A DNA stretch of 64,000 nt from Owenia fusiformis (lineage: Eukaryota > Annelida > Polychaeta > Sabellida > Oweniidae). Shown here piece by piece: positions 11,301 to 62,171 of this stretch. The DNA lies in assembly GCA_903813345.2 (NCBI GenBank), contig CAIIXF020000006.1:4797096-4861095 (forward strand), read 5' to 3'. The position numbers and the translations under genes are program-made. Each line of letters opens with the position of its first letter. Position 1 is the stretch's first letter. The notes under the pieces were generated by a model, which did not search any database, was not told the origin of the DNA, and was given only the letters and a program-made list of their open reading frames with translations.

Positions 11301-14300
11301 TACTCATACCTCATATTTTAACATTTTCACTATCAGTGTATTGGGTATAAGTGTGCGATTAATAAAGAATCTACACTCCCCTCGATAGGTTTGGCAAACG
11401 GAATTTTTCATTGTACGAGGGGTGATCCAAACGTCTCAGATTGTTCAATGAACACTCCCCTCGATAGGTTTGGCAAACGGAATTTTTCATTGTACGAGGG
11501 GTGATCCAAACGTCTCAGATTGTTCAATGAACACTCCCCTCGATAGGTTTGGCAAACGGAATTTTTCATTGTACGAGGGGTGATCCAAACGTCTCAGATT
11601 GTTCAATGAACACTCCCCTCGATAGGTTTGGCAAACGGAATTTTTCATTGTACGAGGGGTGATCCAAACGTCTCAGATTGTTCAATGAACACTCCCCTCG
11701 ATAGGTTTGGCAAACGGAATTTTTCATTGTACGAGGGGTGATCCAAACGTCTCAGATTGTTCAATGAACACTCCCCTCGATAGGTTTGGCAAACGGAATT
11801 TTTCATTGTACGAGGGGTGATCCAAACGTCTCAGATTGTTCAATGAACACTCCCCTCGATAGGTTTGGCAAACGGAATTTTTCATTGTACGAGGGGTGAT
11901 CCAAACGTCTCAGATTGTTCAATGAACACTCCCCTCGATAGGTTTGGCAAACGGAATTTTTCATTGTACGAGGGGTGATCCAAACGTCTCAGATTGTTCA
12001 ATGAACACTCCCCTCGATAGGTTTGGCAAACGGAATTTTTCATTGTACGAGGGGTGATCCAAACGTCTCAGATTGTTCAATGAACACTCCCCTCAATAGG
12101 TTTGGCAAAAGTATATAGTTATACATGTTATATCGAAGCCTGTAAATGTTCTAATTTTGTTCTTCAATCACAACATTTCACTGTAGGGCAAAATGATGTT
12201 TTTCAAATCGCTACATAATAATCGGACTTTGATAAATACTCCAAAGGGGGGGGGGGGGGGGGTTCCGGTCGTCAAACATATGGAGGGGAGTGTACATTCA
12301 TTCAATCATTGAACAAGCCGCTTTCTTTTGAGTTAGAAAGGGAATAGGGGGCTTGGTTCAACACGAGACAAGACCCGAAACGGTATAGTCTCAAACACAA
12401 TACCATCAATCTCGTTAAGTTGTTTGAATGCTATGCATTTTTCCTTATGTGTATTAGAAATGGCATGTTACTCAAAATGTGCAACAAGATGCAACATTCA
12501 AAGAAGTTAAAGTTACTTTGAGAAATGTTTTGTAAAGTTCCTCACTGCCCATGTATATTTTTTAAAATTAAGATTTTTTTCTTTTAGTTGTTTTATTTAT
12601 TTATTTAGTACTGATCGTTTATCACTGTTTTCCATGTATGACGTTCCCAAGAATATTAGCTCCAAACGATCTCTGCAGGCCATCTCCAGATATTTCCAAC
12701 CAAGTTTTAGTAAGGCAGAATTAGTTTTAAGAGGGTAATTTTTGAGCCATATAGAAGGGTATTTATCTTACAAGTTTGGTTTTCATATTTTTGAAATGCA
12801 GTCGAGGGTTATCCATGGACAGGTTGTCTGCTAATTGATTGATAGATGGTTTCGTGAGCTCATATCTAAAATGGAAGTGTTTTAATGTTTCAGACTCTTT
12901 TCCGACATGAACAGGTAGGAGTGGGATGGTGTTGAAATTATGTGAGTTAAGATTCACATCTTAGTCTATTTAAGACCATTTCTTGCTTTCTGGTAATTTT
13001 CAAAGAAAGAGTTAACGTGCTGTACTAATATTATTCTAATAGACGAGAAAGCGATTTTTTGATTTGAAACAATCAAGGGTTTAAGATCGTTTAGTGCCAG
13101 CTGAAATATCATTCTATTCTATTTTACACACAGGATCAAGACAACGTAATAGTACCTTATGCATGCCTTTGGTGATTTTAAGTCGAAACGGTTCTCGAGA
13201 TCCCTACGATGGTCATTAGTATCAAGTCGAGCGTATCCATTGGGACCAATACTGAGCGATAGTAGAAAAGGTCATGCATCTTGTATTCATTTGGTAGAAG
13301 TTTTGTGGCTTGTTCTAATTGGCCAAACTGTACATGGCCCCCATGGGATACAGTACACTATGTCATTGGGAAAATGCATCATGTTAGTGATGCAATTTAT
13401 TATGTTACCGATGTAATACATCAAATTACTGACGGAATACAATATGTTACTGACGGATTACAATATGTTACTGACGGAATACAATATGTTACTGACGGAA
13501 TACAATATGTAACTGATGGAATACATCATGTTACCGATGTAATACATTATGCTACTGACGGAATACAATATGTTACCGATGTAATACATCATGTTAATGT
13601 CTGAATACAATATTTTACTGACGGAATAAATATGTTACCGATGTTATACATCATGTTACTGACGGAATAAATATATTACCGATGTTATACATCATGCTAC
13701 TGCTGGAATACAATATGTTAGCGATAGTATACATTGTGTAACTGATGGAATACATCATGTTACCGATGTAATACATCATGCTACTGACGGAATACAATAT
13801 ATTACTGACTGATTACATTATGTAACTAATGGAATACATCATGCTACTGATGGAATACAATATGTTATCGATGTAATACATGTAGTCTAGTAGGAAGGTA
13901 TGGTCCCCATGCACCCGAAAGATGTATTTTTTTAATGTACATTTTTGTAATTCTAAAGGTCCATACTAAAGATTTTTGCATGTTCCCAAAATGAAATATT
14001 GTCCCATGGTACTCATTGGCGGCCATCTTGTCGGCCATCTTGAATTCTTGAAAGAGTTCATGTTAATCATCTCAAAGTATAATAACTTCCACAGTTTTGA
14101 GAATTGAAAGCTGTAAGTGGTACCAAAATGAAGCTATTATAGTATCCTATATTATCAGATGCAATAATTATGCAAATTGTCTCATTTGCATAAAATGTGA
14201 CATCATCAATCATAATTCTTGCCTCTTTACAACGGTATCGCATTATACCTTTCTGCCTGAGTGATCAGTCTTAGTCATTCATGAACATTAATGATTTTAA

Positions 14301-17300: not shown

Positions 17301-20300
17301 TCCCCGATTTCAGTGGCCTTTCCAGATTTACATTACCTGGGAATTACCTGACATTATATTACCTGACATTACTTGGGAACCCTCACTTCAGCACTTCTTA
17401 AAATGGAATGACCTTTGGTCCAGGACCAAGAGAGGCTCAATTTCCTATTAAGAGCTTTCCCTGACCTGGTCTCAACTCCATCAAACCTCAGACTTTGGGG
17501 CAAGGAAGAAACCGCCAACTGCCCCAAGTGCATGGCAACTGAATGACACATACATTAAAAAATCATATACTCATTAATTATTTGGGTTACAGCTCTCACT
17601 AATGGATAATACAGATGGCGTCATGATTGAGGCTAAGGATGCCCATACTTTGATCTGGGCCTACCTTCAATATCTATCTTGTGTTAATTTGATCTGGGCA
17701 TTATTAACCACTACCACTTTTAACATGTCTCATCAGATCGACTTTTGCATATGTGACAATAAAATAGCCTGACTTGTATTGTGCTGTCATATTGGAATTA
17801 CACTATCATAATGAACACTTCATGTACTTGTAAGCAGTGCATACAAGATGCAAAATTTGGCCAACATTTCACCAATGAGCAACATTGGGCTCTATCTACG
17901 TGACTCTGCTAGACAAGCTTCAGCCCTTCCTTTCAGTTACATAATCTTGTGAAGTGTCAACACTTAATTTCTTACAAAGTCTTTCCAAAATTTCAATTGC
18001 AAATATGTTCAAAATTAATGTACCTATATATTCAAAATCATAAATGCCCATGAATAACCAAGACTGTTACCCAGAGGGAGAGATATTGGTCGTTACCATT
18101 GAAAATGCCAAAAATAATAGGGGTTGTCACATATTATGCAAATGGGAAAATTTGCATAATTATTGCATTTTTATAAGTATATTATAATAGCTCCATTTTT
18201 GTTCCACTTACAGCTTTCAATTATCAAAACTGTGGAAGTTATTGTACTTTGAAATGATTAACACCAACTCTTTCTCAAGAAGTGCCACGCCCCTTTACAG
18301 TAACATAATCATGTGAAGTGTTATAACTTAGTGTCTGACAATGTTTTTTCCAAAACTTTCAATTGCTAATATGTTCAAAATTAATGTACCTATATATTCA
18401 AATTCATTTATGTTCATGGATAACTAAGACTGGTCACTCAGGCAGCAAGGTATTGTGCGATACCGTTGTAAAGAGGCAAAAATTACGATTAATGATGTCA
18501 CATTTTATGCAAATGAGACTATTTGCATAATTATTATATCTTATAATATGGGATACTATAATAGCTTCATTTTGGTACCACTTATAGCTTTCAACTCTCA
18601 AAACTGTGGAAGTTATTATACTTTAAGGTAATTAAAATCAATTCTTTCACCAGAAGTGCCACGCCTCTTTTCAGTTACATTATCGTGTGTCTGACAATGT
18701 TTTTCCAAAAGTTTCGAATTTTTTTGTTGCAAATATGTTCAAAATTAATGTACCTATATATTTAAATTCATTTATGTGAATGAATGACTAAGACTGATCA
18801 CTCAGGCAGAAAGGTATAATGTGATACCGTTGTAAAGAGGCAAGAATTATGATTGATGATGTCACATTTTATGCAAATGAGACAATTTGCATAATTATTG
18901 CATCTGATAATATAGGATACTATAATAGCTTCATTTTGGTACCACTTACAGCTTTCAAATCTCAAAACTCTGGAAGTTATTATACTTTGAGATAATTAAC
19001 ATCAACTCTTTCAAAAATCCAAGATGGCCGACAAGATGGCCGCCAATATATACCATGGGACAATATTTCATTCTGGGAACATGCTAAAATCTTTAGTATG
19101 GACCTTTAGGATTACAAAAATGTACATTAAAAAAATACATCTTTCGGGTGCATGGGAACCCCTCCTTCCTACCTGTCTAATGATGTAACTGATGTAATAC
19201 ATCATGTTACTGATGGAATACAATATGTTATCGATGTAATACATTATGTAACTGATGGAATACATCATGTAACTGATGGAATACATCATACTACTGATGG
19301 AATACAATATGTTATCGATGTAATACATTATGTAACTGATGGAATACATCATGTAACTGATGGAATACATCACGTCACTGACGGAATACAATATGTTAGC
19401 GATGGAATACATTATGTAACTGATGGAAGACATCATGTTACCGATGTAATACATTATGCTACTGACGGAATACAATATGTTAGCGATGGAATACCTCATG
19501 TAACTGATGGAAGACATCATGTTACCGATGTAATACATTATGCTACTGACGGAATACAATTAGTTACTGATTGATTACATTATGTAACTGATGGAATACA
19601 ATATGTTATTGATGTAATACATTATGTAACTGATGGAATACATCATGTAACTGATGGAATACATCACGTCACTGACGGAATACAATATGTTAGCGATGGA
19701 ATACATTATGTAACTGATGGAAGACATCATGTTACCGATGTAATACAATATGTAACTGATGTAATACAATATGCTACTGACGGAATACAATATGTTACTG
19801 ATTGATTACATTATGCAACTGATGGAATACATCATGCTAATGCTTGAATACAATATGTTATCGATGTAATACATTATGTAACTGATGGAATACATCATGT
19901 AACTGATGGAATACATCACGTCACTGACGGAATACAATATGTTAGCGATGGAATACCTCATGTAACTGATGGAAGACATCATGTTACCGATGTAATACAT
20001 TATGCTACTGACGGAATACAATATGTTACTGATTGATTACATTATGTAACTGATGGAATACAATATGTTATTGATGTAATACATTATGTAACTGATGTAA
20101 TACATCATGTTAATGATGTAATATAATTTGTAACTGATGTAATACAATATGTAACTGATGTAATACAATATTTTACTGATGGAATACAACTGATGTTATA
20201 CATCATGCTACTGATATGTAATACAATATGTAACTGATGTGATACATTATGTAACTCATGGAATACAATATGTTACTGATGGAATACAAAATGTAACTGA

Positions 20301-22292
20301 CGTAATACATTATGTAACTCATTGAATACATTATGCTACTGATGGAATACATACACACTGCATTGTGTTACTAAAGAAATTCATTACGATACTATTGGAA
20401 TAAATCCCGTCATTTATCAAATGCAGTACATTGATACTTATTTATATTTCTATAAATGGGATTGGGATATCAGCAGATGTTGTTTGGTTTAATACTGGTC
20501 CTATGAGCTATTCTGATTTATTGCCATTTGTTTTTTCGTTTTTATTCTACCTTTATATAATGGTGTCTATAGCCTCTGATTGAAACACACTTAGCGTGAT
20601 TAGATTACTATCAGAGAAATATGAATAAATAATTATCACTATTGTTTTCATCAATGACAAACACTCCCAATGCATTGATTAACAAGGAAATATTGGTATT
20701 TAGTAACATATAACGATCAATATATGTATATATGTTCATAATAAATAGATTAACATGCAACGAGGCATTGTGTGTCACTTGATGTCAGGCTGTGTTTTAA
20801 CAACCTGACATGCATGAACGGCCAGGTCGATTACTTTTGGAGAATATGTTGTTCTTTATATCGTTTATGTCATGGTTTAATCCATAAATATAGCTACTAG
20901 ATATAGTATATTATTTATATTTCAGGTTCTTCATTAATGAGCGTAGAGTTAAACACAACCATGGCTACTGTTGGTCCTCACTCAACAAAAGCAGTGACCG
21001 CTGACACCACAGCATCATTCTGGAAGACAAAATATGAAGAAAAAGAACAGTTTTATAAAGCTGAGCGAGAAGCCTGGGATGCCGAATTGGCGGCCATTTT
21101 GGATAACCTCGTATCATTTGAAAATCAACTTCGTCTTGAGCAAAATGAGATCGTTCAGTTTATGAATGAAAAGGATATCGTGGTACATCGACAGACTCAA
21201 CATATTAAAGCAATTCTTGCCGTGAATGATACATTAATGGAGATAATGAGAAAACTCAACGCTGACTTACATATGAATAATACGAGTATTGAAAATGTGA
21301 GACAACACATAGAAAGTGAACTCAATGGCATGGAAGCCCTTGTTGTGGAAACGAAAAAGGCATTTAATAACCATATACAAGGACTGAACGATGCACATAA
21401 TTTCCAGACCATCCCCCTAGACAAGAATTGGGGATCTGGTTTTTCTGAATATATATCTTCACACAGCACGGATGTTGACCACATCAAAAGGCAGACAGGG
21501 GAGAATAATAGCTTGGCTAATCTTAAACAAACAAACAAAGCTATATCTTCAAAAGCACCAAGGAAAGTGATAGGAAAATTAAAACAATTAGTCACAAAAT
21601 CTGTACATGCCGAAAACAAGATAAAGGATGCTAACTACGTGACGCATGATATAAAGAGTGATGACTCTTCGAACTCAAGTATTCACAAACAGAACGAATC
21701 ATCTGAAAAATCTTCCGGCGACGTACAAAAAACAACAGGCAACAATATTAATGGGAACGTCAGTCCTAGAGGTCGTCAACGCAAAGTAAGTGTAGTACTT
21801 GCAGAACCATTAGCTATTAAAACCGATGGAGATCAGCATGAAGTTTGGCTTCCTGAGAAAAATCAAAATGACAGATCCCCAAAACAGCATGACACATCAC
21901 TTATAAATAGTGTCGCTAAAAACTTTGGATTGGAAAACAAAGAACAGCGTGAAAGTATGACTAGTAGTATTACCAGCACAGAAAGTGACTTTGACCGTGA
22001 TGTTGAGCTAAAAGGACAGAGTACCACGTCCTGTACTGATAATTCAGACCTAGATGATGATTATTTAAACGATGCTCTTCAAAGTGAGAAAGAGGACACT
22101 GTCGGCGAACTAGTTGAACATCATCGTAGAATCAGTGTAGAGGCTAATGCAGCAGTTGTTGGAAGTTACTTAGAAAAGGGACTGACCCCGAGAGAGGTCA
22201 AGGCCAGAGACAAAACAAGGTCAAGGTCACTTCCTCAGACAGTTAATCTGCAATTTTATGCCCAGCAGTTTACAAATATCACAGATGTTTAA
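5277..22292 (+). CDS. two-exon gene for an unrecognised coiled-coil protein
   Basis: Exon 1 (5277-5355) starts at ATG with A at -3 and an in-frame TAG nine bases upstream at 5268, which supports this start. It encodes 26 acidic and lysine-rich residues and ends in CCAG|GTAAAC, phase 1. Exon 2 (20926-22292) follows a TATTTCAG acceptor and is also phase 1, so the join keeps the frame. The protein is about 481 residues. Residues ~50-180 are rich in Glu, Lys and Gln with heptad-like spacing and few helix breakers, suggesting a coiled coil. The middle is Ser/Lys/Asn-rich and probably disordered. The last ~60 residues contain an Arg-rich stretch. No signal peptide, TM segment or catalytic motif is visible. 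The 15.6 kb intron is full of transposons. I do not recognise the family; a cytoskeletal or scaffold role would be a guess. Confidence 0.75.
6519..7361. mobile_element. foldback MITE, TA target duplication
   Basis: The left end reads CACTCCCCTCCATAGGTTT and the right end is its inverted complement, with AACTTATGGAGGGGAGTG. Both are bordered by TA. The arms stay complementary for well over 200 bases inward, so almost the whole ~840 bp is a giant hairpin. There is no transposase. TA duplication and terminal symmetry fit a non-autonomous Tc1/mariner-type element. A relative lies at 11372-12294. Confidence 0.85.
7362..11371 (+). other. intron DNA of the coiled-coil gene
   Basis: I see no exon in this intronic stretch. 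It contains a tRNA-like B-box word (GGTTCGATTCC, ~8574-8584) without a convincing full tRNA. There is also a local direct duplication of about 30 bases starting at 9478 and 9547 (ACAAATCTGATTTGAAACAT). Confidence 0.5.
11374..12120. repeat. 79-bp satellite, about 9.5 nearly identical copies
   Basis: Units start at about 11373, 11452, 11531, 11610, 11689, 11768, 11847, 11926, 12005 and 12084, an exact 79-base period. By eye, internal units are identical over whole lengths. Only the last partial copy shows a visible change (CTCAATAGG for CTCGATAGG). Each unit includes the transposon terminal motif CACTCCCCTCGATAGGTTTG. Confidence 0.95.
12246..12262 (+). repeat. poly-G tract
   Basis: A run of about 17 G residues just inside the right end of the 11.4 kb element. 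Similar runs occur at ~30527 and ~46284. Length is prone to sequencing and assembly error. Confidence 0.8.
12295..13384 (+). other. intron DNA, nothing recognised
   Basis: Intronic stretch between two repeat structures. The short ORFs here (for example on the minus strand at 12763-12957) show no domain or splice context. Confidence 0.4.
13385..13880. repeat. left 21-bp minisatellite
   Basis: Units resemble ATGTTACTGACGGAATACAAT, a 21-base period, equal to seven codons. This keeps several frames open and creates the spurious ORF at 13281-13604. Units are nearly self-complementary around GATGTAATACATC. Confidence 0.9.
15600..17460 (+). pseudogene. decayed non-LTR reverse transcriptase
   Basis: Broken fragments of a LINE-type polymerase appear in changing frames. 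Around 15934-16170 is a basic Arg/Leu-rich segment typical of the region before the RT domain. Around 16540-16760 are pieces resembling RT motifs near VWLDL. At ~17005-17035 is the catalytic-site relative AFMDDITVM, i.e. F-x-D-D. At ~17240-17340 is a C-terminal piece including DLEKWF and, a little later, RFQWPF. Stops and frameshifts separate all pieces, so it is not functional. I infer it came from the RT class common in marine invertebrate genomes; the clade needs a search. Confidence 0.7.
19178..20350. repeat. right 21-bp minisatellite
   Basis: Same unit family as the left array, longer (about 55 units). It is open on both strands, which explains long ORFs at 19068-19559, 19152-19574, 19575-19790 and 19806-20021. 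These are not genes: their products are pure 7-residue repeats that follow the DNA period. Confidence 0.9.
20351..20925 (+). other. intron 3' end before exon 2 of the coiled-coil gene
   Basis: Unique AT-rich sequence leading to the TATTTCAG acceptor at ~20925. Nothing else is recognised. Confidence 0.6.
20926..22292 (+). CDS. exon 2 (terminal) of the coiled-coil gene
   Basis: Long terminal exon, open for 1,367 bases. The acceptor ATATTTCAG precedes GTTCTTCATTAATG. An internal ATG at 20937 could be the start if exon 1 is not used, giving 451 residues. The first third (WKTKYEEKEQFYKAER and onward) is a likely coiled coil. The region around residues 240-390 of the exon is polar and Ser-rich. 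The end has an ARDKTRSRSLPQ basic segment. A weak ATTAAA polyadenylation hexamer lies about 330 bases after the stop, at ~22621. Confidence 0.85.
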
Positions 22293-24949: not shown

Positions 24950-24955
24950 TTTATT
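24950..24955 (-). terminator. polyadenylation signal of the REJ/polycystin-like gene
   Basis: AATAAA on the minus strand (read as TTTATT on plus) about 130 bases after the stop codon at 25082. It is the first such hexamer after the stop that I can see and would give a short 3' UTR. Confidence 0.5.
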
Positions 24956-25081: not shown

Positions 25082-26238
25082 TCATCTGTAATAATAAAAC
25101 ATAATCCACCCAAGAAATACCATGGCAGCACTAAGTAAAAACAAATAAATGGTAAATCCACTGTAAGTTGAAATGTTTGGTGACTTCTTCTGAAGGTCCG
25201 CCGAATTTCGACGTAAAACACCTACATTTAACATCGGAAGTTGAGATTTTTCCTCTTGAACTTGAATATTCTCCTCTTTGAGTTGAATCTTCTCATCTCT
25301 CAGCTGAAATATCTCTTTTTGTAGCTGCTCTCTCTCATTATCACTGTCACTGTTCATATATGGTGCTACTTCAGCATTAACATCAACGTTTGGTGAATTC
25401 TTATGAAGGTCCGCCGTATTTCGATATACAATCGCCACTTTTAACATCTGAAGATGAATGTTTTCCTCTTTGACCTCAATGTTCTTCTCTTTGAGGTGAA
25501 ATTTCTCATCTCCTAGTTGAATAATCTCCCTTTGTACTTCATCTATCTCATTATCACCGTCACTGTCCATATATGGTGCTACTTCAGCATCAACATCAAT
25601 GTTTGGTGAATTCTTATGAAGGTCCGCCGTATTTCGATATACAGTCGCCACTTTTAACATCTGACGATGAATGTTTTCCTCTTTGACTTCAATGTTCTCC
25701 TCTTTGAGGTGAATCTTCTCATCTCGTAGTAGAATAATCTCCTTTTGTACTTCATCTATCTCATTATCACCGTCACTGTCCATATATGGTGCTACTTCAG
25801 CATTAACATCAACGTTTGGTGAATTCTTATGAAGGTCCGCCGTATTTCGATATACAGTCGCCACTTTTAACATCTGAAGATGAATGTTTTCCTCTTTGAC
25901 CTCAATGTTCTTCTCTTTGAGGTGAAATTTCTCATCTCCTAGTTGAATAATCTCCTTTTGTACTTCATCTATCTCATTATTACTGTCACTGTCCATGTAT
26001 GGTGCTACTTTAGCATCAACATCAATATTTGGTGAATTCTTCTGAAGGTCCGCCGTATTTCGATATACAGCCGCCACTTTTAACATCTGAAGATAAATGT
26101 TTTCCTCTGGGACTTCAATATTCTCCTCTTTGATGTGAATCTTCTCATCTCCTAGTAGAATAATTTCTTTTTGTACTTCATCTATATCATTATCACGGCC
26201 ACTGTCCATATATGGTGCTACTACAGCATCCATTGGTT
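25082..26238 (-). CDS. exon 25: repeat-rich tail with terminal TM segment
   Basis: A 1,157-base open exon after a TTTCTTTACAG acceptor, ending in a stop at 25082. It is in phase with exon 24 (phase 1). It encodes about 384 residues: five units of 71 residues beginning VAPYMDS, each with a charged, Glu/Lys-rich helix (KEENIEV-type) likely to form a coiled coil. A hydrophobic segment (IYLFLLSAAMVFLGWIMFYYY) with one basic residue after it closes the chain. The alternative is a separate tail-anchored protein starting at the internal ATG at 26233 with its own unseen 5' exon. It does not resemble the TM6-TM11 channel region of polycystin-1. Confidence 0.7.
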
Positions 26239-29200
26239 CTGTAAAGAAAGAAAATAAAGTTTTTAATAGGGGATAGAAGCAATGGCTCAATACAGATAGA
26301 TTCAAATGATTTAGCCATATCTCTGATTAAGTATATCCCCAACCTTAAATAAGTTATCAATTTAGGCTGATTAATTATGAAATGTTTTTTTGTAACTCGT
26401 GTTATCATTTATCATAGTATTCTTTTATTAAGACTTAGTGTTTGTTCCACCCTCAGTTTTAGGTTAGATAGAACGATAACAAATTGTCTTAATTTCACAA
26501 CCCCCCCTTTATAATTTGGAGTGTTAAACATCTGTAAGCATTTATCTTTAATATTTGTAACATGACATTATTTCCTCAATGGATACATATGGAAGCGCAA
26601 GTTTGAACGAGAAAATACCAAAAAGGTTACGGAGCAATAAAAAGAAAACATCTAAGACTACACCAGTCATAAGGAAATAAAACCAACAACTCTAAGTATA
26701 ACAAGTGCCATCCTCCGATCACAGGGCTTCAAAATCCAGAAAATCTTCTTTCTTTTTACCCCCTGCGATAAGCAGTTAGCATTTCCTCGATTAAGAACTA
26801 GCAATTTGATTCGCTGTCGCAATACTGCGACAGCAATCATGTACACGTCATTGGCGCATTATTAAATCACGTGACTCCTTTTAATCTGGCGCTTCCAAAC
26901 TGCTTATAGCAGGGGGGAAGAAGGAGGTACGGATTCTGGACACCTGCTTAGGAGGATGAACAAGTGCCAAAACTTGAAACTTCAAATGAATGTATTTTTC
27001 AGTAAAGCCTAGGAAGAATTTCTGAAAGTCACATCTAAAATACCCGTGATGTTTTAATCGATGTAAGCATATTCCTTACATCTTTCTTTATCTTAATGTG
27101 AATTAATAAGCTATCATTTTGGTTAACACGCCAGAAATGTACATTATATAATTCGAAGCGTTATTAGAAAATTTCGAATCCGCCATTTTTGTTTGTCGAT
27201 TTGGACCAATCAGGACGGTGGGTCATCTCAATACAGATTTACATTATAGATGTACGTCATCTTTGAACTCTGGGGTTTCCCATTCACTCACCCGGGACAA
27301 TTTTGTCTCTACTATCCTGAATCTGATGTTTTTTCTTACAGATCGACGCAGACAATATTGCCAAGGCCACCACTTTGAGGGGTTGCATGATCAATATACT
27401 GGTTAACATTGAGGTCAGTATTGAGGTGAGCCACTCCATGCTCGCCTGGTAGCTATACTTCAGACCATATAATATGACGAAGTAGGAAGCTGACAGGCAG
27501 ATTAGGATGCTTAGTGTCCAATTGATAAAGAGGAACCACCATGGAAGCCTAGAAATAAAAGTCATTAAACTGAAAATAAGATAAAAGAGCCCGAGAACAC
27601 TAATAAGTAACCAGGTGCAATTAAACATCATGAACATACCCAACTGGCTGTTCCTTTTTCACTTGAAGTTCAATGACACTGTGTCTAAATGCTTCACTCC
27701 CAAGCCCGCTCTCAAGCTCTTTGTCAACCTGTTGTTTCCACGTCTCCAAGGCAACATTTCCGCTTCTATCATGCAAAGATATTGTTGTCGTAATTGTTGT
27801 TGTTTTTGTATCTCCTACGCAAGGATTCAACTTGGATGGCCTGGAGCGAAATATAAACTCAAAAATTATCTAACGGCTGCCAGGCATACTTGATAGTATT
27901 TGAAATATAATCTGACTCCAATTTCAGAAATATTTGACATGATAACTATAATTCCTTCAAAATCAAAATCACAAGCTATTCTACTAGAGTTTTGCTGTTG
28001 ATATAGTCGGACGAATGAAATATGGAGGTTTATGATTCAAATGTTATACTACAAAATATTACCTCATGCTTGGTGAGCTTCCATTTGCTAATATGTGATC
28101 TGGTCCTGTCAGCCATGATACGTTTAGTTTAGAGGAGTTCGGGGTCGATTGGTTCGGAGTGAAGAACATTCTGTTTTGTTTGCACAAAGGTTCAGTTTCA
28201 TCATAACTTATTACTAAATTATCTGCAATTTCAGGTGAACCAGTGGAATCACTTCTAGTTGTATCCATCGATTCATAACCTTCCTCGGAATATAAATCCT
28301 CTGGTATTTCGTCATCATCCGTTTTATTTTCAGTAGTTCTAGGTTTTGCCTTGGTTTGTCTAAAGAGCTGCTCGATGATCAAAATGACTGGGGACATAAT
28401 GAGACTGCACCATAAGCCTATTATAATAGCAGATGATGATGAATGAATCCGACCGTACTGCTTTTGATCTTCAGGGCCATCCTTAGGTATTCCAAAAAAC
28501 AAAACTATAGTCAACATTTGACTTAATATCAATGTGAATACACATGTGGTACGCTGTACTCGTGTAAAGTGACTTTCTGGAGGTTTAGAGAATATACTCA
28601 ACCACAGATGATTGTCAAGCATGACATTACCAATGAGTCTAAGAAGTGATTCGGAAGTTTGTTTTAAACGATTTTCGTTCTTTGTACGTAGTGTACATGA
28701 AAAAGAAAAGTCTTCCTGATTTGCAGCCATCCATCTATTACACATGAATTCCCAGACTTGGTCTTTCTGTAGATCTCTCACAATAACTTCATTGAGATAC
28801 CTGGAGGGCAAAAGTAAATCATGAAATAAAGCCACAACGCAATTGTACTTCTCTGTACAGTCTAATTGAAAGTCCACGGTTAATAGTATCACCCGCTGAC
28901 TTGAATACTAGGGTTTTTGAGTATTTGAATAAGTATAAGTAAAGCTGACCTAGTCATATTTTGCACAACACATACTTATGATGTGATGTATGTCCCCCTA
29001 GAATATGAAACATAATGCATTAATAGTAATGGAGATATGGGACATTTTATATCCATACCCCATAATTGGTATTTCAGGGGGAGTAACATGGAATAGCCGT
29101 CTAACGCTGAAAAATTGGGAACTCAAATTTCAGGAATCAATGCCCCTTGGGATGGCCTATATGATCATACTAATTAAAACAAGTTTTTAGACTACATCGT

Positions 29201-32200
29201 ACGACAATGCCCTATCACCTACTCCAGTATAACCCATTCTGACAATGTCCTCAGACTTCGCCTTTGTGCATAATGTGTATGGGTTAGTACGTACATACTG
29301 TACACTCATGCTTTTATATTTCCAATATAGAATGATACACGATTCTTTATTCCTAAAATATATAAAACCATCTCGTTGACTTTATTATTTCCATGCCGTG
29401 ATACTTGTTCTCTCATTGGTCAATTAGATACCATGTGACTAAACATATATAGAGGTATTCCTTGTCTCCCTGCTTAGAAAACGTGTGAAGAGTGTATTCA
29501 CTAAAAATGACGTCATTTTAATTGAATAAATAGTGGTATTCACTAAATATTTGTATAGTATTTTCAGAATATTTACTATAATTATGACTTCCCATCAACC
29601 CTTGCATCTCACCAGTTTGGATAGTCTCCAGTGTTGTCATGCCAGATTGTGATAGACTCCAAGAAGCCTATACTTCCCATTGTTGTCACTAGGAAATAAT
29701 CCTCATTTCCAGCTCTGAACAACTCTGCATTCCCATATCTCCGTTTCAACTGTTGGGATTCACTCGATCCTTTTGTTCCATTCAGTTGAATAAATACATT
29801 GGCGCTAGTACTTGCATCCTGTTGCAAACCTGTTACTATGGTAACAAGGTAACAGTGGTGCTGCAAAGAATTATTGTCTCCTGGTCTAGTTTTCTACAAA
29901 GTAAAGATAGTTCAATTGTTCGATTGTATACCTACATAGGGGCCCTGGTTGAAAGCTGGCTACGCCCCTGACATACGTAATGCAATGTCTTATATTCTTT
30001 GCAAGATTTTTAACAGAATTGCAAGCCAAATTTAAGGTTAGAATATTTGTTTAAGAAAAATGACCAAAACAAGACCATAAGAGATATTTCATCTCAACCT
30101 TCTGCAGAGCGGATAAATACATGTAGTACTTACATGTGAAGTATCTTTCCTGTCATGTCGCTTTGCATATACAACAAGTATGATATACAAGAGCCAAACC
30201 GCTGATATGACACTGGCAGTCACCGGGTTATTTGAGGAGGTCAAAAACACATTTTCATGACCGAAGTGGTACGCAACATTAGGAATCACGAAGAAGCTGC
30301 CGGAAAATGTTGTCATATGGTTACAATCACATGATAAACCGCCTGGGGTAGCTAACGGTGATACCTGTAAAAGAAAACTGATTTTAAGTTAATCAATTCT
30401 TGCAAAAGTATATGTATAGTATTACTATATCATATCATATCATATTAAATATTAGATTACATCATCGTTAAAATACATAATAGGTTAATAATACTACATT
30501 CAGTGGCGTAGCTAGGATTTCTCAAAGGGGGGGGGGGGGGGGTGAGATTTCAGATTGATGAGGCAAAATCGAAAGAAAGGCAGAGCCCAAAACTTTTTTT
30601 GGGTCAAAAAAGATTTCTATGCTCATCCTATACACATTTGCAACATCGCACCATGAGATTTCAGTAGCATAAAAACATTAATATTATGATCCCGGGATAC
30701 CTCTTTCAAAGGTTGATTGCTTGCTTTACTTATCCAAACCTTGAAAGCTCATTCTTTCACAAATAATTAGTGGCCTAGTGCTAGATATCAATCGGAATAT
30801 TGACAACTATTATGTTTATTCCCAGGTATTTTTCGTGCTGTACAAGTACTATGTTGAAAGAGGGATAAGATTAGATTAGGAAAATTCAAAAAATGGCGCA
30901 ATGCACTTTCACATTCAACTTTATTCGCGCAATGTTACAAACGGAAGTTCACAAAAACAAAACATTCCACGTCTCTCACATTTCAATTAAGATTTTGTGA
31001 AACGTTTTGATCAATGTTATAATAATTCTTTATTGATATCAACAATTTCTTTTTGATAACTTGATTGTGTCCCCGGTGCATATATACATCGTTTACAAAA
31101 ATCCAATGTGTTTCGTCTAGAATGGAAAGAAACTGTTAACAATGACAACTGGCCTCATTAAAGCATTTTACCATTTGTTTATTTGAAATATTAAAATAAG
31201 ATGTGTACCGTCCATTTTGTATCATTAGTCATAGTTGTTTCAGGCTGATACGCATGATGACTAATCAGGTGTATCTACATCTTTCTGTTCCCTTGAGTAC
31301 ACTCGAATTAATAGCTAGTTTATTTAGAGAACAATCTTAATTTAAAGAGACGATCATCGAAATTGATGAAACTCACCGTAATATTGTATTTTTCCACTAT
31401 ATCAGACCATTATATATTTACAGTTTTCTGTAAATTGTGCACCAGCTGTCTTCAATTTGTTACAAAATGTACTTTGGAGTATTGTGACTAAAACTGCAAA
31501 GTTTCCACGGAACCCAAGTTACACTAATCTTGTAACCCACATCAACTTTCACTGAGCGGTATACTGTATAAGTGGTATTTAATCCGAGTGGTTAATTTTC
31601 CGAATGGTCAAATTTCCTAATTTTCCTAATTTTAATTTTCCTAATGACAAGAAACCTCCCATTGGATAACATTTTAAAGACAATATTTCCGACATTTAAT
31701 TTTCCGAACCTGGCAAAAATTAGGAAATAGGCAAATTAAATGATTAGGCAAAATTACCACTTATACAGTATATATATTCCCCTTCTGAACAAGGTGGCCC
31801 TAGTGCCTGCTTTAGTATTTACCTTAATATTCTGGAAACCCCTAAAGATTTATTAATCCAATTTATGGAACAATTTCAAAAGTGATATTTGCATCATATG
31901 CAAAGGAGTGGTATCGATATGGTGAATCTTTTGAATACGCGTTTCTCTTAAACTAGTCATCAAAATATTCTCAAAATTTACACATCGTCAATTTAATGGT
32001 CATCTTTTGGATGGTAACATTATAATCTGAAATATATATATACACTTTTCTCAATATGCAGAAAAGTCCAGAGAGGGCTTGATTGTGCTATCCTATGGCA
32101 TAAAACCTCTTTAAAAAGTATCTTGTTAGCGAAATAAAAGGTTTATCTTAATTTTTATCTTCATACTTTTTGTAAAATCAACCAAAATTTCCTTTGTATA

Positions 32201-35200
32201 ACTATAATATTGAGAGGTCTAAGAAAATGTTGTATATGCTATTTTGTTCCAACAAGGTTCGGAACGACATTTTAATCCATTCTCAAGAATTGGTAGAAAG
32301 GAACAAAAAACGATTGCACTGAAAAACAAAAAATGTTAACAAAAACAGTTTGCCAATTAGTCAACATTACATAAAAGACCGTGTTTTCTACAGAATGTTT
32401 CAATAATTGGTTTAAGAGAAAACATTGTTGAATTCAGTTCACTATATCTATACCTATCCTTTTCATGAAGTTAGATTGAAATCAATTTTTTTGCCCACCC
32501 TGCACACGTAGGAAACCTCCCAAAACATACCTTAAACTATTTCTAACACCAAAACTTACATCACACCCAGCATCGCTCCACATCTGCAAGAACTCGTTCC
32601 AAAAGAGACAGTTAAAAGTATAAGTTCCAATGTCCAACTCTAGATGAAGGCCTTGTGTTTCATTCTCAGGAATTCCACTCATGTTGTAGCCTGCTACAAA
32701 CTCAGAATTTCTTGGATTGTTGTTCTCAAGCAGAATACCTTAAAAAAGAAAAATCATTTCTGACTTTTCTAAAGACGAAACAACCAAATAAAGTGAAAAT
32801 GTATGTATTGGAAAGATACCTTACCGATAAATAGCGTCCTGTTATGGTTCGATTTGGGCATATATATAACATTGGGGTGAGCTGTTTTATCAGTTCGAGA
32901 TCTATACAGTGTGTCAGCATCATGTGGTATCCTTGTGGCATTACTATTCATATCATTCATATCTGGCCTCTCATCCTCTTTAACATACACCTTCAAAGTA
33001 ATGTTTTCTTCGACAGGTTTAACATAAATAATGACAGCACTACCCTCATCAGCACGGAACTCAACGACAAGTATATCTCTATCTTTGTAGTCTGACAACA
33101 TTGTAGGAGTTGATTTTTCCAGTTCTGATATTGGCACTGAAAGCTGGACTCTATCCATATGAGGTATACCTGAAAAAATAAATGTTTTATTACTTACTAT
33201 TTTAGATTAAAAAGGGTACTCATCTGATGTATGTATTATTTTGGACATTTTAAGACACATTAGTGGCTACAAAATCTGTTGTAAGACTATTATGCTGTAA
33301 AGTAAAATGCTAAAATGCGCTGGAAAAAGAAAATACCCTCGGGAGGTATCTGACCTCACTTTTATAAACCGGAAATGAATCTCACATACACGTTTTTGAA
33401 TTACTGTAAACATTTAATTGATAATAATTGTTCATCAGGAATACCAATTTTCTCATAGTACTCATAGTGTCAGCTACTAAATCAAAAGGGCAGTACCAAA
33501 TTCAGCGTGACAGTTGCACACACAAGGTAAGGTAGAACTCGAGGGTGATAAAATTTGAGCAAACTGATGTGTCATCGTTTCAGTAAGATCTGGTTTCTAG
33601 TTTTTTTTATATGTAAATGTCTAACATCATCCTAAACTGTGAATTTCATAGTTAAACCTACACAAACTCTCAAGGTAGTATACGGTATAACGCGCGGTAA
33701 CGGTAAGGTACAACAGAAGGAATTTAAAAGATGGGTATCGATATGGCGAAATTTTTGAACACACGTTTCTCTTAAACCAGTCATCAAAAAATTCTGAAAA
33801 TTTTACACATCAAATGTCAATTTAATGGTCATCTTTTGAATGATAACAATGTAATTGGAAAAATGTATATATAATTTCATCTATATTGTTTTAGAAAACA
33901 CATCAAACACTTGTTTTGTTCTTATTATCATGTTTCCAGAGTGACATGAAACAACTTTCCGAACCTCATTGGAACAAAACGACATAAACACAACATGTTT
34001 AGGTCTCTCAATATTGTAATTGTACAAAGGAAATTTTGGTTGATTTGAAAAAAGTATCTTGTTAATGAAATAAAAGGTTTATCTTGATTTTTATCTATTT
34101 TGGGGGGATTTTGTTTTAACTTTTTGAATGCTTTTTAAAATCAACCAAAAATTCATATTGAGAGGTCTAAAATCATGTTGTATATGCTATTTTGGTCCAA
34201 CAAGGTTCGGAAAGATATTTTATTTCATTCTCAAGAATTGGTAGAAAGGAGCAAAAACAATTGCACTAGAAAAACAAAAAATGTTAACAAAAACAGTTAT
34301 ATAAAATATTTCTAAATAATTTTCGCATTAAATTGTTGTCAATCAGTCAACATTACATAAAATACCGTGTTTTTTACAGAATGTTTTCAATGATTGGTTT
34401 AAGAGAAAACATTGTTGAATTCAGTTCTCCATATCGATACCACTCCTTTGAGTTATACCGTATCTCGGGTAAAGGAGTGGTATTGATATGGTGAACTTTT
34501 TGTTTGAACACGCGTTTCTCTTAAACCAGTCACCAAAACATTCTGAAAAATTTACACATCGTCAATTTAATGGTCATCTTTTGGATGGTAACATTATAAT
34601 TTGAATTATATATATGTACTTTTCTCTATATTGTTTTAGAAAACACATCAGACACTTCTTTCGTTCTTGGTATCATATGTTCAGAATGAAATGAAACATC
34701 TATCCGAACCTCAATGGAACAAAACGACATAAACACAACGTGTTTTAGTCTCTCAATATTGTAATTGTACAAAGGAAAGTTTGGTTGATTTTAATAAAGT
34801 ATCTTGTTATTGAAATAAAAGGTTTATCTTAATTTTTATCTATTTTGAGGGGGTTTTGTTTTAAGTGTTTTACATATTATTCTGTTAATTAAACCAAATG
34901 CTATTTTGTTCCAACAAGGTTCGGAAAAATATTTTATTCCATTCTCAAGAATTGGTAGAAAGGAACAAAAAACAATTGCACTAAAAAGCAAAAAATGTTA
35001 ACAAAAACAGTTATATACAATTTTTGCATTAAATTGTTGCCAATCAGTCAACATTACATAAAGGACCGTGTTTTTTACAGAATGCTTTCAATAATTGGTG
35101 AGAGAAACATTGTTGAATTCAGTTCACCATATGGTGTACACTTAGAGTCTGCTTTTTCTTGCTAGGTTTCATTACAACGTTTGGTCCTTTGCCTTTTGCA

Positions 35201-47200: not shown

Positions 47201-50200
47201 TATATAATTCTTTATTAATACCTGCAATTTAACAACCTCGATAGTTGTAGCTTGGAAATAATCTGTTGCTAATATATGTATCTCCACTGTATAGTTTAGT
47301 TCACTATCTCCAGGGCCTAGCTGTACCCCTAACAACTCTGACTTATATGTATTAGCCAGCAATGCTCCTAAAAAGGTGAGGAATTAATCAAAACACGTCT
47401 TCGACCCTAGGAAACAAAGAACAAATATCCATATATTAACACTGAGCTAAAAATCATAATTTGAACAAATTAAAAATGAACACTGAGCAAAGTAGAACTT
47501 AGTGATTTAAACCTACCTGTTGAGTTTGACCCTGTCACAAAGTAAAACTCATAGGTTAATGGGTCATCATTATCTTGAAAATTATCGCAGTAAATGTCAA
47601 ACTCATCCACGAGAGTAACTCCTATAGGTGGAGACACTGTACAAGACCTATATGGAGCTATAGGCGGCGTATTAGTTGTAAACTCCAATGTAGCAAATCC
47701 GGAATCCATGTATCCAATTTTTTTGACACCTACATCAATTTATGAGGGATTAGTATTGTTTGAATTACAACTGTATGTAAAGAGATTCCATAGTAACGAA
47801 ATGCCACCCTCCTGTTGTACACAGATGTAATCAAAAATGTTTAGTGATGGATGTGTAGAGATACCATCCCTGACTTGGTGTTAGTTCGGCACATTATGCT
47901 CGTTGTACAAATATGTTAACAAGACTGAGGTATTACCTATCTCACACAAAACATCATTTGAAATTAAGTTACATGAATAATGTTACGGGTAGTTTTATAG
48001 GGTATATTCTGTGTGTAACATAAATATCTTACCAAGGGCCGGAATAAGCTCACTGAAAGTAACTGTTGTAATGGTTTAATCTATTATCATAATTTCTGTG
48101 AAAATAAGTAAACAGTCTCTTTTTACAGTACCAGTAACAATGATTATAAAGCTACATCCTTCAGGCAAGGTGTTTGACCTGATGCTAACAGCTTGATTAT
48201 ATTGTCCCGTTAAGCTCATGGTCGCCCAGTCTGAAAGAAAACAGCATTTGTCATTATGTTGTGCAAGGTGCTTGACCTGATGCTCACAGCTTGATTATAT
48301 TGTCCCGTTAAGCTCATGGTCGCCCAGTCTGAAAGAAAACAGCATTTGTCATTATGTTGTGCAAGGTGCTTGACCTGATGCTCACAGCTTGATTATATTG
48401 TCCCGTTAAGCTCATGGTCGCCCAGTCTGAAAGAAAACAGCATTTGTCATTATGTTGTGCAAGGTGCTTGACCTGATGCTCACAGCTTGATTATATTGTC
48501 CTGTTAAGCTCATGGTCGCCCAGTCTGAAAGAAAACAGCATTTGTGTCATACTGTTGTGCAAGGTGATTGATCTAAGGCTCACAGCTTGATAATACTGTC
48601 CTGTTAACCTCATTAACGCCCAATCTGAAAGAAATAAGCATTTGTCATAATGTTGTGCAAGGTGTTTGATCTGAGACTAACAGCTTGATTATATTGTCCC
48701 GTCAACCTCATTGTCGCCCAATCTGAAAGAAAACAGTTTTCATTATGTTGTGCAAGGTGATTGACCCGATGCTCACAGCTTGATTATATTGTCCCGTCAA
48801 GCTCATTGTCGCCCAATCTGAAAGAAAACATGTACAACAGTTTTCATTATGTTGTGCAAGGTGTTTGACCTGGGGCCCACAGGTTGATTATACTGTCCCG
48901 TTAAGCTCATGGTCGCCCAGTCTGAAAGAAAACAGCATTTGTCATTATGTTGTGCAAGGTGTTTGACCTGGGGCTCACAGCTTTATCATATTGTCCCGTT
49001 AAGCTCATGGTCGCCCAGTCTGAAAGAAAACAACATTTGTCATAATGTTGCGCAAGGTGTTTGTCCTGAGGCTCACAGTTTGATTATATTGTCCTGTTAA
49101 GCTCATTGTCGTCCAGTTTGAAAGAAACTTATTTTTTTGTTAATTTATCTCATTTATACGTAGTTCATATAAGCAACGTATGAGTTATGTAGTACTTTCT
49201 CAATATGCATTTGTTTAAATGGTATTCGGATTATAATATATCCTGGTGTTATTTCGCAGTTTTCTTGTGGTCTTATAACCCGAAAGTTCTGATCGAATTG
49301 CATGAAAGTATATGTTTATGAACTTAAACCACACTTAAGTAGCAACACAACAGAATTGACTGTAGAATATACAGTTATAATAAAGAGCAGTGTATTATTT
49401 TTCAATTGTTTTTAAAGAATATACACTTAGCTAGCCAAAACCAGTGTGGCACAAAAGACGATTGACTGTCACATTCAGTGCACTAAAGCTGAACTAATCA
49501 TACCCTAGTCACTGTTTTAATAGTTGAATAGTAAACACTTACGAAATCAAATTTTAAACGGTACATGCCATGTAAAATGCAATTGCACTAAGCTGAACTA
49601 ATTGACATCCTCCCTCTCACTTCTCATTAAGCTTACCTCAGTTATACAAAAGAAATGGATTTTACCTAAAATTGGATCTTTGGCCATTTAACTTTCTATC
49701 ATGTAAGTGTTTGTGCCCATTGTGTGATTTAAATAAGATAAACATTTCTTCCCGGGTCGTACACTGCCAAAATAACTCCATGCTAAATCAGCGCTAATCT
49801 TTTTTCGCGCTAATTTAGCGCTGATTTGGTACTGAATTGGTACAAATAAAGTTTGTGTGGAATTAGCGCTAATAAATCAGTACCAAATCAGTACAAACCT
49901 CAGTTAGTGCGAAATCAGCACTAACTTAGCAGTGCTAATTTAGTGCTAAGTTAGTGCTGATTTAGCACTAACAAAACTTATATTTTTTCTGACTTTTATT
50001 ACAGTATTATTGATTGATTTAAGCAATATTGATATTACTTATTTAGAGTTTGAAATATTTTATTATAAATAACATTCATTATTGTGATTTCTTCAATTGA
50101 GTTTGACATCTTAGGGAAATCCCTGGGAAATCCCTTTGAACTTTTGACCTATGACGTCACACATTCTATGACTCATACAGGAAGTTTGAGAAGCCACATA

Positions 50201-53200: not shown

Positions 53201-56200
53201 GCACTAATTCCACGCTAATTCGGTGCAAAGTCATCACTAAGGTTAGTGCTGAGTTAGCGCTGAGTTAGTGCGAATTTTGTACCTGCTGTACAGCTCGATT
53301 GGTACTAAATCAGTACTGACAGTTTAGCGCTAATTCCACACTAAATTAGTACTAACTCCACACTGATAATTTGATTGCGGATTGGGGGTGTAGGTACATG
53401 TAGGCTTTGCGCCTTGGCCATTGCTTTTCGTAATAACCAAGACTTATTGTTTACCCCTAACCTAACAACACGGAATAACAAAACACTTTTTTATGAGGAT
53501 TTTGGGATGCAGAGACAAGAATGAACTAGGATTTCCTAGGATGAAGAAAATACTATAGGGTTACCTTTACTTACTTACCCATTGTGAAGTCACAATCAAG
53601 AGAAAATATGGACCAATCAAAACTGAGATCACTTTGTCTTCGGCAGTTTGTACAATGGGCTGCCATGGAGAGTTTGCTGTTAGGAGTCACTTTGTACTTG
53701 CAATTCTGAAGGCACCTGGAAAATATTAGCTATTTAGTAAACCTATACTACTCACTAGAAAGTAACAGTCCATGGTATGAAAGGAGTGGTATCGATATGG
53801 AGAACTGGATTCAACAATGTTTTTCTCTTAAACCAATCATTGAAAACATTCTGTAAATAAAAACACGGTATTTATGTAATGTTGACTGATTGACAACAAT
53901 TTAGAAATATTTTATATAAATGTTTTTGATAACATTTTTGTTTTTTAGTGCAATTGTTTTTGCTCCTTTCTACCAATTCTTGAGAATGAAATAAAATGCC
54001 TTTCCGAACCTTGTTGGAACAAAATAGCATATACAGCATGTTTTTAGACCTCTCAATATTACAGTTATACAAAGGAATTTTTGGTTGATTTTAAAAAAGT
54101 ATTCAAAAAATTAAAACAAAATCCCCCCAAAATATATAAAAACCAAGATAAACCTTTTATTTCATTAACAAGATACTTTTTTAAAATCAACCAAAATTTC
54201 CTTTGTACAATTACAATATTGAGAGACCTAAACATGTTGTGTTTATGTCGTTTTGTTCCAATGATGTTCGGAAAGATGTTTCATTTCACTCTGGAAACAT
54301 GATATCAAGAACAAAACAAGTGTTTGATGTGTTTTCTAAAACAATATCGATGAAAGTATACATATATTTTTCAAATCGTATTGTTACCATTCAAAAGATG
54401 ACCAATTGTCATTAAATTGACAATGTGTAAAATTTTCAGAACTTTTTGATGACTGGTTTAAGAGAAACGTGTGTTCAAAAAGTTCGCCATATCGATACCC
54501 ATCTTTTCCAGGACGTCGAGTCAAAAAGTTGGTGACATATATGCGCAGCAATATTTAACCTTATATTATAATATCTACATATGTCCCGCGTCTTATTTTT
54601 GTATAGCCGTTATAAATACGGCGGGCTTTTAGGCCGAATTATGCCTCTCATTAGCAGGGGTCAAGAAATGTCTAAAATTATTTCGTATTTTTCAAAATTT
54701 AAAGTACAAACATTAAAAGCAAATCATATGAAAATATTTTTAATACAGGGTGGTCACAAAATGGAAACCCTTACATCATTTTTATCATATCTTTGTCATT
54801 TTGGGGAACAACTCCCTGATATTTTACACATTTGAACATCGTTAAATTTCAGATCAGCCTACCATATTTCATGACCATCAGACTGATGGTAATAATGTTA
54901 CAGCACTTTAAACAACATGCTCCGTTGGCAAATATTGCGCTTTAGGCAAACCTGCACACATCTTCCAAAATTTACCTACCTGTGGGGATATGGCAAACAT
55001 AGAGTGTATCAAAATGGCCTCAGGGCAATTGTGTCATTCAGGCCATACCTGCCGAGAAATGCATTCGGGTCATTGACAATTGTGCAGGTTTGCCTACAGC
55101 GCGTAATGGCCAAATCTGAAGCATGTTGTTCAAAGTGCTGGAAAATTGTGACTACCAGTCTGATGCTCATGAAATATGGTAGGATGGTAGAAAATTGAAT
55201 GATGTACAAATGTGTGAATAAAATGACAAAGATATAAGAAAAATGCAGGGTTCCGTTTTTTAATCACCCTGTATATGCATCAAGTTTCTTGGCTATAATT
55301 TTGGGGTATTTGTTCCTTAAGATACCTCATTATTTATGTCGTTTTTGGAGATATTGGTGAAGCAGTCTAAGATGTCACCTGGAAGATTGGTGTAACAGTA
55401 TACAATTGTTGACCTCTCCAGAGGTCAACCGGCAAAATTGTATACCGAGACTGTAAACCGAGAAACTACTGTTGACAGAGACCGAAGGTCGAGGTCAACA
55501 GTGTTTCAAGGTTTACAGTCGAGGTATATGATTTCGACGGTTGACCGAATGGAGAGGTCTACAATTGTTTTGTTAGTCAGAAGAAACTAATAATACTCAT
55601 ATATACGACAGTCATCAATCATGGCTTCATTTCACAATCTTTTCTACGAACCTGCACGCCAGCAATAATTTTTAAGAAAATCTGAAGACAGTGGAAGCTA
55701 AACTCTCTGTTTTCGGCACATTACTGCGTACTCGCAAGTAAATTAATGTTAATTTTGCGTTTCTATTTGTATTGTTGCTATACTCGTCGTGTAAAAAGTC
55801 AAAATATCACTTTCACCAACGTGTACAAAATGACCGACTACCATGTTTTTTCTGTAAACATTGTGACGTCATATTTCCCATAATTCACAAGTGTAGTACA
55901 GTCACATACGCGGTCAATAATATGATATCCCATGATGCACAAGTGAGGTACAGGCAAAAATGTTGACCGCTAATTGACCAATCAGATGCGAGTATTTACA
56001 CTGAGGTACTAACAATGTAAGATGTCACCTGGAAGAGTGTTCCATTTAGCAATTGTCCTAGGGAAATAGCTAAATTTGTATGTATTCGTTCTAGTTGATT
56101 GTTGTATGTACTACAACCTAGTGTTGGTATTGATCTGTTGGTGGAAGTATGGAGTGACATTTGGTTCGGACCTGACTGCACTTCTCTGTAGCTGTTCTAA

Positions 56201-60816: not shown

Positions 60817-62171
60817 CTTAATTAAACAAAATTGACCTTTGTTAATAAGGAACACATGCGGGATTAAAACATTTTTGTCAAGTTCAGCAAGCCCCAGAGG
60901 AGCAACAAACGAGACTGGCACTGTTCAATATCATAAGGTATGCGGGATTGCATCTGATTCAGTTTTCATCTAGTTTGATTGACAATTAAATTTTAAATAT
61001 TTTTAATTGAATTAAGCTGTTTAACACTCAATACTTTATATCCATAAATCATCGGAATGAAATCAAACTTTCAGGGAGTGAGAAATTATATGAAACGTAC
61101 AAATGTATTGCGTTAAATTTAATATCTGAGTTTCACTTCTGTTAGAAAGGAGATTAAAGAAGACAAAATATGCTTTCTAATGGTATGCTGTTTATGTGAC
61201 TTGCTATTTCAAATCATAACAAAAAAACGTATGTTATGCCAGTCTGCATTACCACAATATTCTGGCATCCGATGCGTTACATTTAATTAACCACAATATA
61301 CTGTGGCTAGCTAATTCATATTGTAAAAACTAAACGTAATGCTGTTAGCCTGCGAAAAATATTTCATCATTTATTCTTAATTATCGGGTACAAAAAGGAG
61401 CGATGCTTTTTGCAATAGAGGCAGCATTCGAACATTGAACATTCATACAACATACAATGTACAGACATTACACATACATCTAGTTCCCAGGATATTATTA
61501 AAAATACTCGTGAAATCCTGATTTATAATTTTTAACTGAGATTTCTAGGTCCGTGGGTTGTCTTTCATCCGGACCGACACAATGTTATATCCATTTTAAA
61601 CAAAACAGGCAAACAGATAACTTCTTGCATTATGCATTAATGGGCCAAAAACGGGTTGACTGGGCAAAATTCCGCCATTTGTTCGTGCATGCAAAGTCGC
61701 TGGTTAGCATAGAGAAAAATGTCCACTGTGTATAAACAAGCATGCTATCCATACATTTGAGTAACAGTGTAGATTAAACAGGGGTAGGCTGGCCGTGCAG
61801 TCATCGTATGGTTGACGCATGGATAATGTAAGAATATGATGGGTAACGGCGTGGGATCCTATGCTTGTTATTAGTGAGTTTAATCTTGCATATAAATCGA
61901 AACACCAACCTATATGACAAATCGCCCATACAAATACATCGCTTAATATTTTACGTTCACGTTTAGGTTGTTAAAAATTCCCTTGCCCTATTCATCTTGA
62001 TACATTTTACCGTACGTACGTATTAAGCAAATGTGACTTCTATTTGCGTAAAACAGTGCTAAAATGTATCTAGTAAGAGCCAAAAAGAAAACAATTTTCT
62101 ATATCACATACCCTCCCTTCACATGATATTGAAATCTTCTCTAATTCGTTTAAGTCCCCATCTCAAGTTTA
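60817..62171. other. upstream intron or flank of the REJ gene, nothing recognised
   Basis: AT-rich sequence above the TSP1 exon. Because that exon starts in phase 1, this must be intron unless the exon is preceded by one I cannot see. No further TSP1-like or signal-peptide exon was found here. Confidence 0.5.

Follow-up and report, generated by a model that had tools for sequence, protein, structure and literature searches.

A REJ/polycystin-1-type receptor gene of Owenia fusiformis with a repeat tail very likely joined in place of the channel exons

Gene structure and the repeat tail

The window analyzed here is a 64,000-nucleotide stretch of the Owenia fusiformis genome, positions 4797096-4861095 of contig CAIIXF020000006.1 (C6), and it contains a receptor gene, p1, on the minus strand. 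Window positions are used where no contig is named, and all p1 features lie on the minus strand. The whole genome (498 Mb) was searched, and p1 is compared below with a second gene on the same contig, p2, and with two channel-bearing sister genes, p3 and p4. The domain content of p1 comprises TSP1, PKD and REJ parts, a GPS-like motif, TM1, PLAT and a TM2-TM5 block. Judged from sequence, p1 is very probably a REJ/polycystin-1-type receptor gene, present here as its 3' half and without the channel exons (TM6-TM11).

The upstream part of p1 contains a PKD-domain open frame at 59829-60551, with a TSP1 domain just upstream (60536-60817). The REJ domain, which is described as the defining feature of the REJ/PKD1 family (PMC1934368), was identified by Pfam (E 2.6e-11) in three collinear parts at 59429-59548, 57783-57953 and 47521-47712, the last of which covers profile positions 298-361. 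The part at 57783-57953 includes one TGA inside the match when read without introns. The region 57783-58444 also contains 149-base tandem copies on the minus strand (Tandem Repeats Finder, 2.5 copies with 95% matches at 58021-58398). These copies repeat a REJ stretch (TNFTVPNTxL...YLFTVxVxK), and part of the REJ domain itself appears to have been multiplied in p1.

An open frame at 30089-30388, with approximate exon edges, contains the GPS-like motif (SCDCNHMTTF) and TM1. The Pfam score for GPS was below the cut-off (15.1 versus 22.5 bits), and the CDCNHMT motif is readable and also kept in p3. The GPS/TM1 block is 76.5% identical in p2 and 64.6% in p3. The PLAT domain after TM1 was confirmed by Pfam (E 1.7e-11 on the open frame 29609-29893), and its exon was placed at 29613-29893, with the 3' edge set by eye and the 5' edge approximate; it is conserved in p2, p3 and p4. 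The TM2 and TM3 exon (28063-28800, bounded by splice sites) matched human polycystin-1 chain 6a70_B with a domain E of 3.3e-15. It is followed by the TM3-TM4 linker exon (27640-27840, bounded by splice sites, 70% identical in p2) and by the TM4 and TM5 exon (27292-27548), which is 81%, 71% and 67% identical in p2, p3 and p4, respectively. The TM4-5 stretch taken singly matched 6a70_B with a domain E of 0.23 only, and the TM2-3 and TM4-5 blocks gave two collinear matches to this chain with a whole-sequence E of 1e-19. A search of the receptor half against NCBIfam gave nothing useful.

The TM4-5 exon has a phase-1 GTGAGT donor and is separated by an intron of 1053 bases (26239-27291) from the last exon (25082-26238), which contains the repeat tail, a C-terminal TM helix and the stop codon, and in which the tail unit is 70% identical to that of p2. 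The last exon starts after TTTCTTTACAG and is in phase through to the stop. The last four exons have GT/AG splice sites and matching phases, and the spliced sequence remains open from the PLAT/TM2 junction through the whole of the tail. An AATAAA polyadenylation signal is located at 24950-24955, 127 bases past the stop, and a second AATAAA was observed at 26429, within the intron before the tail. A reading of the sequence alone (the sequence-only reading) had proposed that the TM4-TM5 exon runs into an in-phase exon encoding five 71-residue repeats and one TM helix, that both exons are of phase 1 and lie 1.05 kb apart on the same strand, and that an AATAAA follows the stop. The splice sites, the repeat analysis and the hydropathy scan agree with this exon structure, and the phases, the intron and the signal were all confirmed. 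Taken together with the comparison to p2 below, the fusion of the TM5 exon to the tail is very likely real as judged from the sequences.

The five 71-residue units occupy 25169-26233, and Tandem Repeats Finder identified a 213-base unit in 5.0 copies with 90% matches at 25175-26230. The repeats are beyond chance, as is evident from the approximately 90% DNA matches between units and from the related unit at the equivalent position of p2. K and E are abundant in the unit, and each of the six units (five in p1 and one in p2) has an invariant Met at position 9. Elsewhere in the genome, the protein search with the repeat, a check suggested along with the sequence-only reading, found a related unit in p2 only, plus one weak match on contig C9 (21% identical, E 5.5e-4), which we read as a chance match between charged sequences. 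Pfam gave nine matches for the tail frame, each of them below its cut-off.

A hydropathy scan of the tail (19-residue window, threshold 1.6) exceeded the threshold only in the last stretch (2.11), which lies in the C-terminal segment at 25085-25168 (FTIYLFLLSAAMVFLGWIM) and is the sole TM-like helix of the tail. The AlphaFold prediction of the whole tail from a single sequence had a mean pLDDT of 36.6 and is usable for the last helix only, which was the only well-predicted part of the exon (blocks of 70-84 pLDDT). For the six aligned units, a single helix was predicted at residues 12-66 with a mean pLDDT of 67.6, of which only residues 11-40, approximately, were well predicted. A 7-residue hydrophobic period was present in all six units, and five hydrophobic residues at a spacing of seven were matched by 3-7% of the shuffles per unit. 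The dominant hydrophobic spacing is i, i+2, the power at 3.5 residues is weak and the a/d spacing is unclear. Based on these models, the unit is probably helical and may serve as a spacer or multimerizer, with a canonical coiled coil as a candidate only.

Several other features were observed in the window. A dispersed repeat with recurring peptide-like stretches is present at 31883-32461, 33726-35135 and 53780-54524, and also within the p2 and p3 stretches; it is probably a mobile element. An open frame on the minus strand (56710-57021) contains the stretch GVPQGTVLGPLCFLVYINNM, which we take to be reverse-transcriptase-like. A 461-residue open frame on the plus strand (20907-22292) is convergent with p1 and is perhaps the next gene downstream of it. 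A 21-base satellite of the ATGTTACTGATGGAATACATT type forms two arrays, at 13381-13880 and 19183-20352, and a 79-base array with 9.3 copies and 99% matches is located at 11373-12109.

A second gene with a related tail

The second gene, p2, is on the minus strand of C6 like p1, where its blocks span 4928056 to at least 4964153, and the tail ends of the two genes are approximately 106 kb apart. In tblastx comparisons the main p2 blocks were collinear with p1 from REJ (4964153) to the tail, and an extra REJ part of p2 was located at 4985481. Scattered short matches outside the collinear order were taken for repeats and chance. The TM4-5 exon of p2 has 257 bases as in p1, and the two genes have the phase-1 GTGAGT donor and the TTACAG acceptor in common. 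The p2 intron before the tail is 521 bases long (junction at C6:4928837-4928315). The tail exon of p2, the 3' end of which was set by an in-frame stop and could be subject to further splicing, has 260 bases and encodes a single unit, after which comes a different, charged end that has no TM; no copy of the TM end of p1 was found near p2.

The exons of p1 and p2 align from just after the acceptor AG, whereas the introns do not align; comparison of the 1053-base and 521-base introns gave nothing above a 12-base word (E 0.066). In both genes, read-through into the intron would reach a stop two codons in (VPGE* in p1 and DISE* in p2), and this early stop and the AATAAA within the p1 intron make an unspliced form with five TM helices possible. 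A part of the p1 intron, 26710-26976, matches C6:4932623-4932887, before the TM2-3 exon of p2, in short tblastx pieces of 62-83% identity, and this common block is probably a repeat.

None of the four exons examined contains an in-frame stop in either gene. The comparison of tail units 1-5 of p1 with p2 gave dN/dS values of 0.26, 0.19, 0.24, 0.22 and 0.36, with a synonymous excess at Fisher p values of 4e-5 to 0.024, calculated from rounded counts and non-independent for the tail, since the five tests share p2. Among the other exons, dN/dS was 0.51 for TM2-3 (p 0.002), 0.49 for TM4-5 (p 0.059) and 0.79 for the linker (p 0.41), such that constraint was not significant for the latter two. The dN/dS values of the p1 units among themselves ranged from 0.53 to 1.18 (ten pairs), which does not establish that the individual units have been under constraint after they multiplied. 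The dS values were 0.48-1.07 for the tail versus p2 and 0.16-0.28 for the other exons, a difference that one shared history without conversion would not neatly predict. The p1 units differ from each other at dS values of 0.03-0.40, lower than those to p2, which suggests that the expansion in p1 occurred later or that conversion keeps the units alike.

Search for the channel half

The channel half, TM6-TM11, by which the 11-TM proteins are recognized, was found in neither p1 nor p2. The PKD_channel and Polycystin_dom profiles had no match within the p1 window, as compared to 27 and 24 matches, respectively, genome-wide. The only channel matches on C6 belong to the sister gene p3 (5243513-5244625, on the other strand), approximately 420 kb from the p1 tail, and are the nearest such exons on the contig. 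When the genome was queried with the p3 channel exon (437 residues) at E values up to 10, 33 matches were obtained, none of them near the window or p2. The only close copies were p3 itself and p4 on contig C4 (67%); the other 31 matches were at most 44% identical.

The TM6, middle and channel pieces of p3 were also used in local tblastn searches at E values up to 1, which can miss strongly decayed exons. In p4, which served as the control, all three pieces were found (E 9e-50, 0.0 and 5e-28). Across the whole window they gave one weak match, at E 0.41 and on the opposite strand, and across 59.9 kb around p2 one weak match at E 0.62. The sequence-only reading had found no TM6-TM11 exons between 22.3 and 27.3 kb of the window, in agreement with these searches. 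That reading had also described a receptor with five plus one TM helices, a REJ domain and a coiled-coil tail. We recovered TM1-TM5 and a repeat tail in place of the channel half, with p2 alike; the coiled coil is a candidate only, with a 7-residue period but no clear a/d spacing.

Using the TM2-5 block of p1 as the query, 28 matches were obtained at an E value of 0.001, which manual grouping reduced to 15 loci. At 12 of the 15, a channel or polycystin-domain match followed on the same strand, no more than 26 kb downstream (in Mb, C6:5.22, C4:17.45, C9:24.97, C7:19.49, C9:20.89, C3:17.86, C1:24.05, C10:17.29, C7:15.86, C12:2.83 and C9:7.81, and on C194). The locus on C151 lies approximately 3 kb from the contig end and is uninformative on the channel, and the two loci without a channel match are p1 and p2. 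The 15 loci are fewer than the whole family, as the TM2-5 query missed a locus with REJ and channel matches at C3:18.78-18.82 Mb.

Two further loci were observed in the lists of matches. At C12:32531943-32534196 (plus strand), REJ matches had no TM2-5 or channel match nearby; judged from these matches, this is perhaps another channel-less REJ protein, and there may be further channel-less REJ genes in this genome. At C9:34035995-34065880 (minus strand), two clusters of channel matches approximately 27 kb apart, with no TM2-5 match nearby, are probably polycystin-2-like genes.

Origin of the tail, alternative explanations and proposed function

Over the 236 residues of the TM block, p1 and p2 are 79.7% identical and p3 and p4 74.6%, as compared to 62-66% for the four cross pairs. 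Read by eye, the TM5 donor and the TM6 acceptor are both of phase 1 in p3 as well as in p4, and an exon of the same phase could therefore replace the channel exons with the frame intact. We propose that the phase-1 TM5 donor, spliced to the TM6 exon in the sister genes, is spliced in p1 to another exon of phase 1. A single loss of the channel with gain of the tail exon before the split of p1 and p2 would be the simplest account, because p3, p4 and ten other scorable loci carry a channel. This replacement would have been followed by expansion of the unit in p1, and either p1 would have gained the TM or p2 would have lost it. Neither the TM6 exon nor the C-terminal end of the p3 channel exon is convincingly related to the tail. 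We rejected TM6, that C-terminus and the TM5-TM6 linker exon as sources of the tail, as the unit and the p2 tail scored no better than shuffles; the p1 tail end versus the TM6 exon was matched by 7.8% (p3) and 23% (p4) of the shuffles. The last TM of p1 versus TM6 was matched by 1% of the shuffles, over approximately 20 hydrophobic residues, and was not counted as homology.

The tail exon could alternatively be a separate intronless gene for a tail-anchored repeat protein, located downstream of a truncated receptor and duplicated together with it, which we consider unlikely. The p1 exon does have an ATG at its second complete codon (EPMDAVV), but p2 has none at this site (KSVDAAV). The invariant Met at unit position 9 might provide another start; however, the stretch from the acceptor to this second Met is conserved, with conservation starting just after the AG, and the phase-1 donor ahead of the tail has been retained in both genes. 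Tail-anchored proteins typically have a C-terminal TM with few residues after it, and the C-terminal TM of p1 with its short end fits this pattern, yet no copy of this end was found near p2.

There is little reason to expect that channel exons are missing from the assembly or lie far off, with the tail as an alternative last exon. An assembly may contain gaps, but no N occurs in 10 kb around the p1 tail or in the 59.9 kb around p2, two separate, though paralogous, loci are without a channel, and the close copies in the genome are accounted for by p3 and p4. Least probable of all is that the gene is decaying, with the channel deleted and the tail representing read-through sequence. The weak constraint on the linker and among the p1 units would be compatible with decay, but the synonymous excess in the tail units versus p2 and in the TM2-3 exon, and the open reading frames of the four exons in both genes, argue against it.

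It is reasonably likely that p1 and p2 constitute a subfamily whose entire channel module gave way, at a single phase-1 intron, to an expandable tail, with one unit in p2 and five units plus a TM anchor in p1. The product of p1 would be a natural channel-free polycystin-1 with a cytosolic arm tethered at both ends.

The sequence-only reading had called this a new architecture for the family, a claim that is not supported in this form in view of SpREJ7 of Strongylocentrotus purpuratus. Gunaratne et al. (2007) described ten sea urchin REJ cDNAs with 0 to 11 TM helices, among them SpREJ7, which has six TM helices, its two termini on the same side and a coiled coil at the C-terminus; channel homology is claimed for SpREJ3-6 only (PMC1934368). 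A six-TM REJ protein with no claimed channel is therefore already in print. The TM count and the absence of a channel fit p1, whereas p2 reads as five TM helices. SpREJ7 differs in that it carries a WSC domain and that 428 residues interrupt its REJ domain, and the available description, with which p1 was compared, does not mention a 71-residue repeat (PMC1934368). Among 89 listed WSC matches, none was within 0.8 Mb of p1, p2 or p3 on C6, which, with the 5' end of p1 beyond the mapped part, counts mildly against orthology with SpREJ7. SpREJ1, 2, 8 and 9 are likewise REJ proteins without a claimed channel, but are described with 1-2 TM helices (PMC1934368), whereas p1 keeps TM1-TM5 and PLAT. 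The 11-TM REJ/polycystin-1 proteins (human PKD1, p3 and p4) have PLAT and the TM2-TM5 block in common with p1, and p3 and p4 also carry REJ parts, but their TM6-TM11 and polycystin domain were not found in p1; the repeat tail was not found in the searched stretches of p3 and p4. In the available open-licence literature we found no report of the repeat tail, the exon exchange or the tandem pair.

In the topology of polycystin-1, a chain with TM1-TM5 ends in the cytosol. The repeats would accordingly form a cytosolic arm, with both ends fixed to the membrane in p1 and with a free end in p2. As TM6-TM11 are absent, p1 should, judging from known structures, be unable to supply a polycystin channel subunit, and its product would form no pore with a polycystin-2 partner. 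It could instead be an adhesion-type receptor that clusters or signals by means of PLAT and a multimerizing tail, perhaps after cleavage at the GPS. This functional reading, a channel-free adhesion or signalling receptor, is put forward tentatively, as a possibility that falls short of being likely.

Whether polycystin-1 is chiefly an adhesion receptor or a channel subunit has long been debated. A pair of genes that keeps the ectodomain, the GPS-like motif, PLAT and TM1-TM5 without the channel would suggest that the receptor half is able to act on its own, and the channel-bearing sister genes in the same genome provide matched controls for p1 and p2. The exchange of a single phase-compatible exon suggests a possible route by which channel-less receptors originate.
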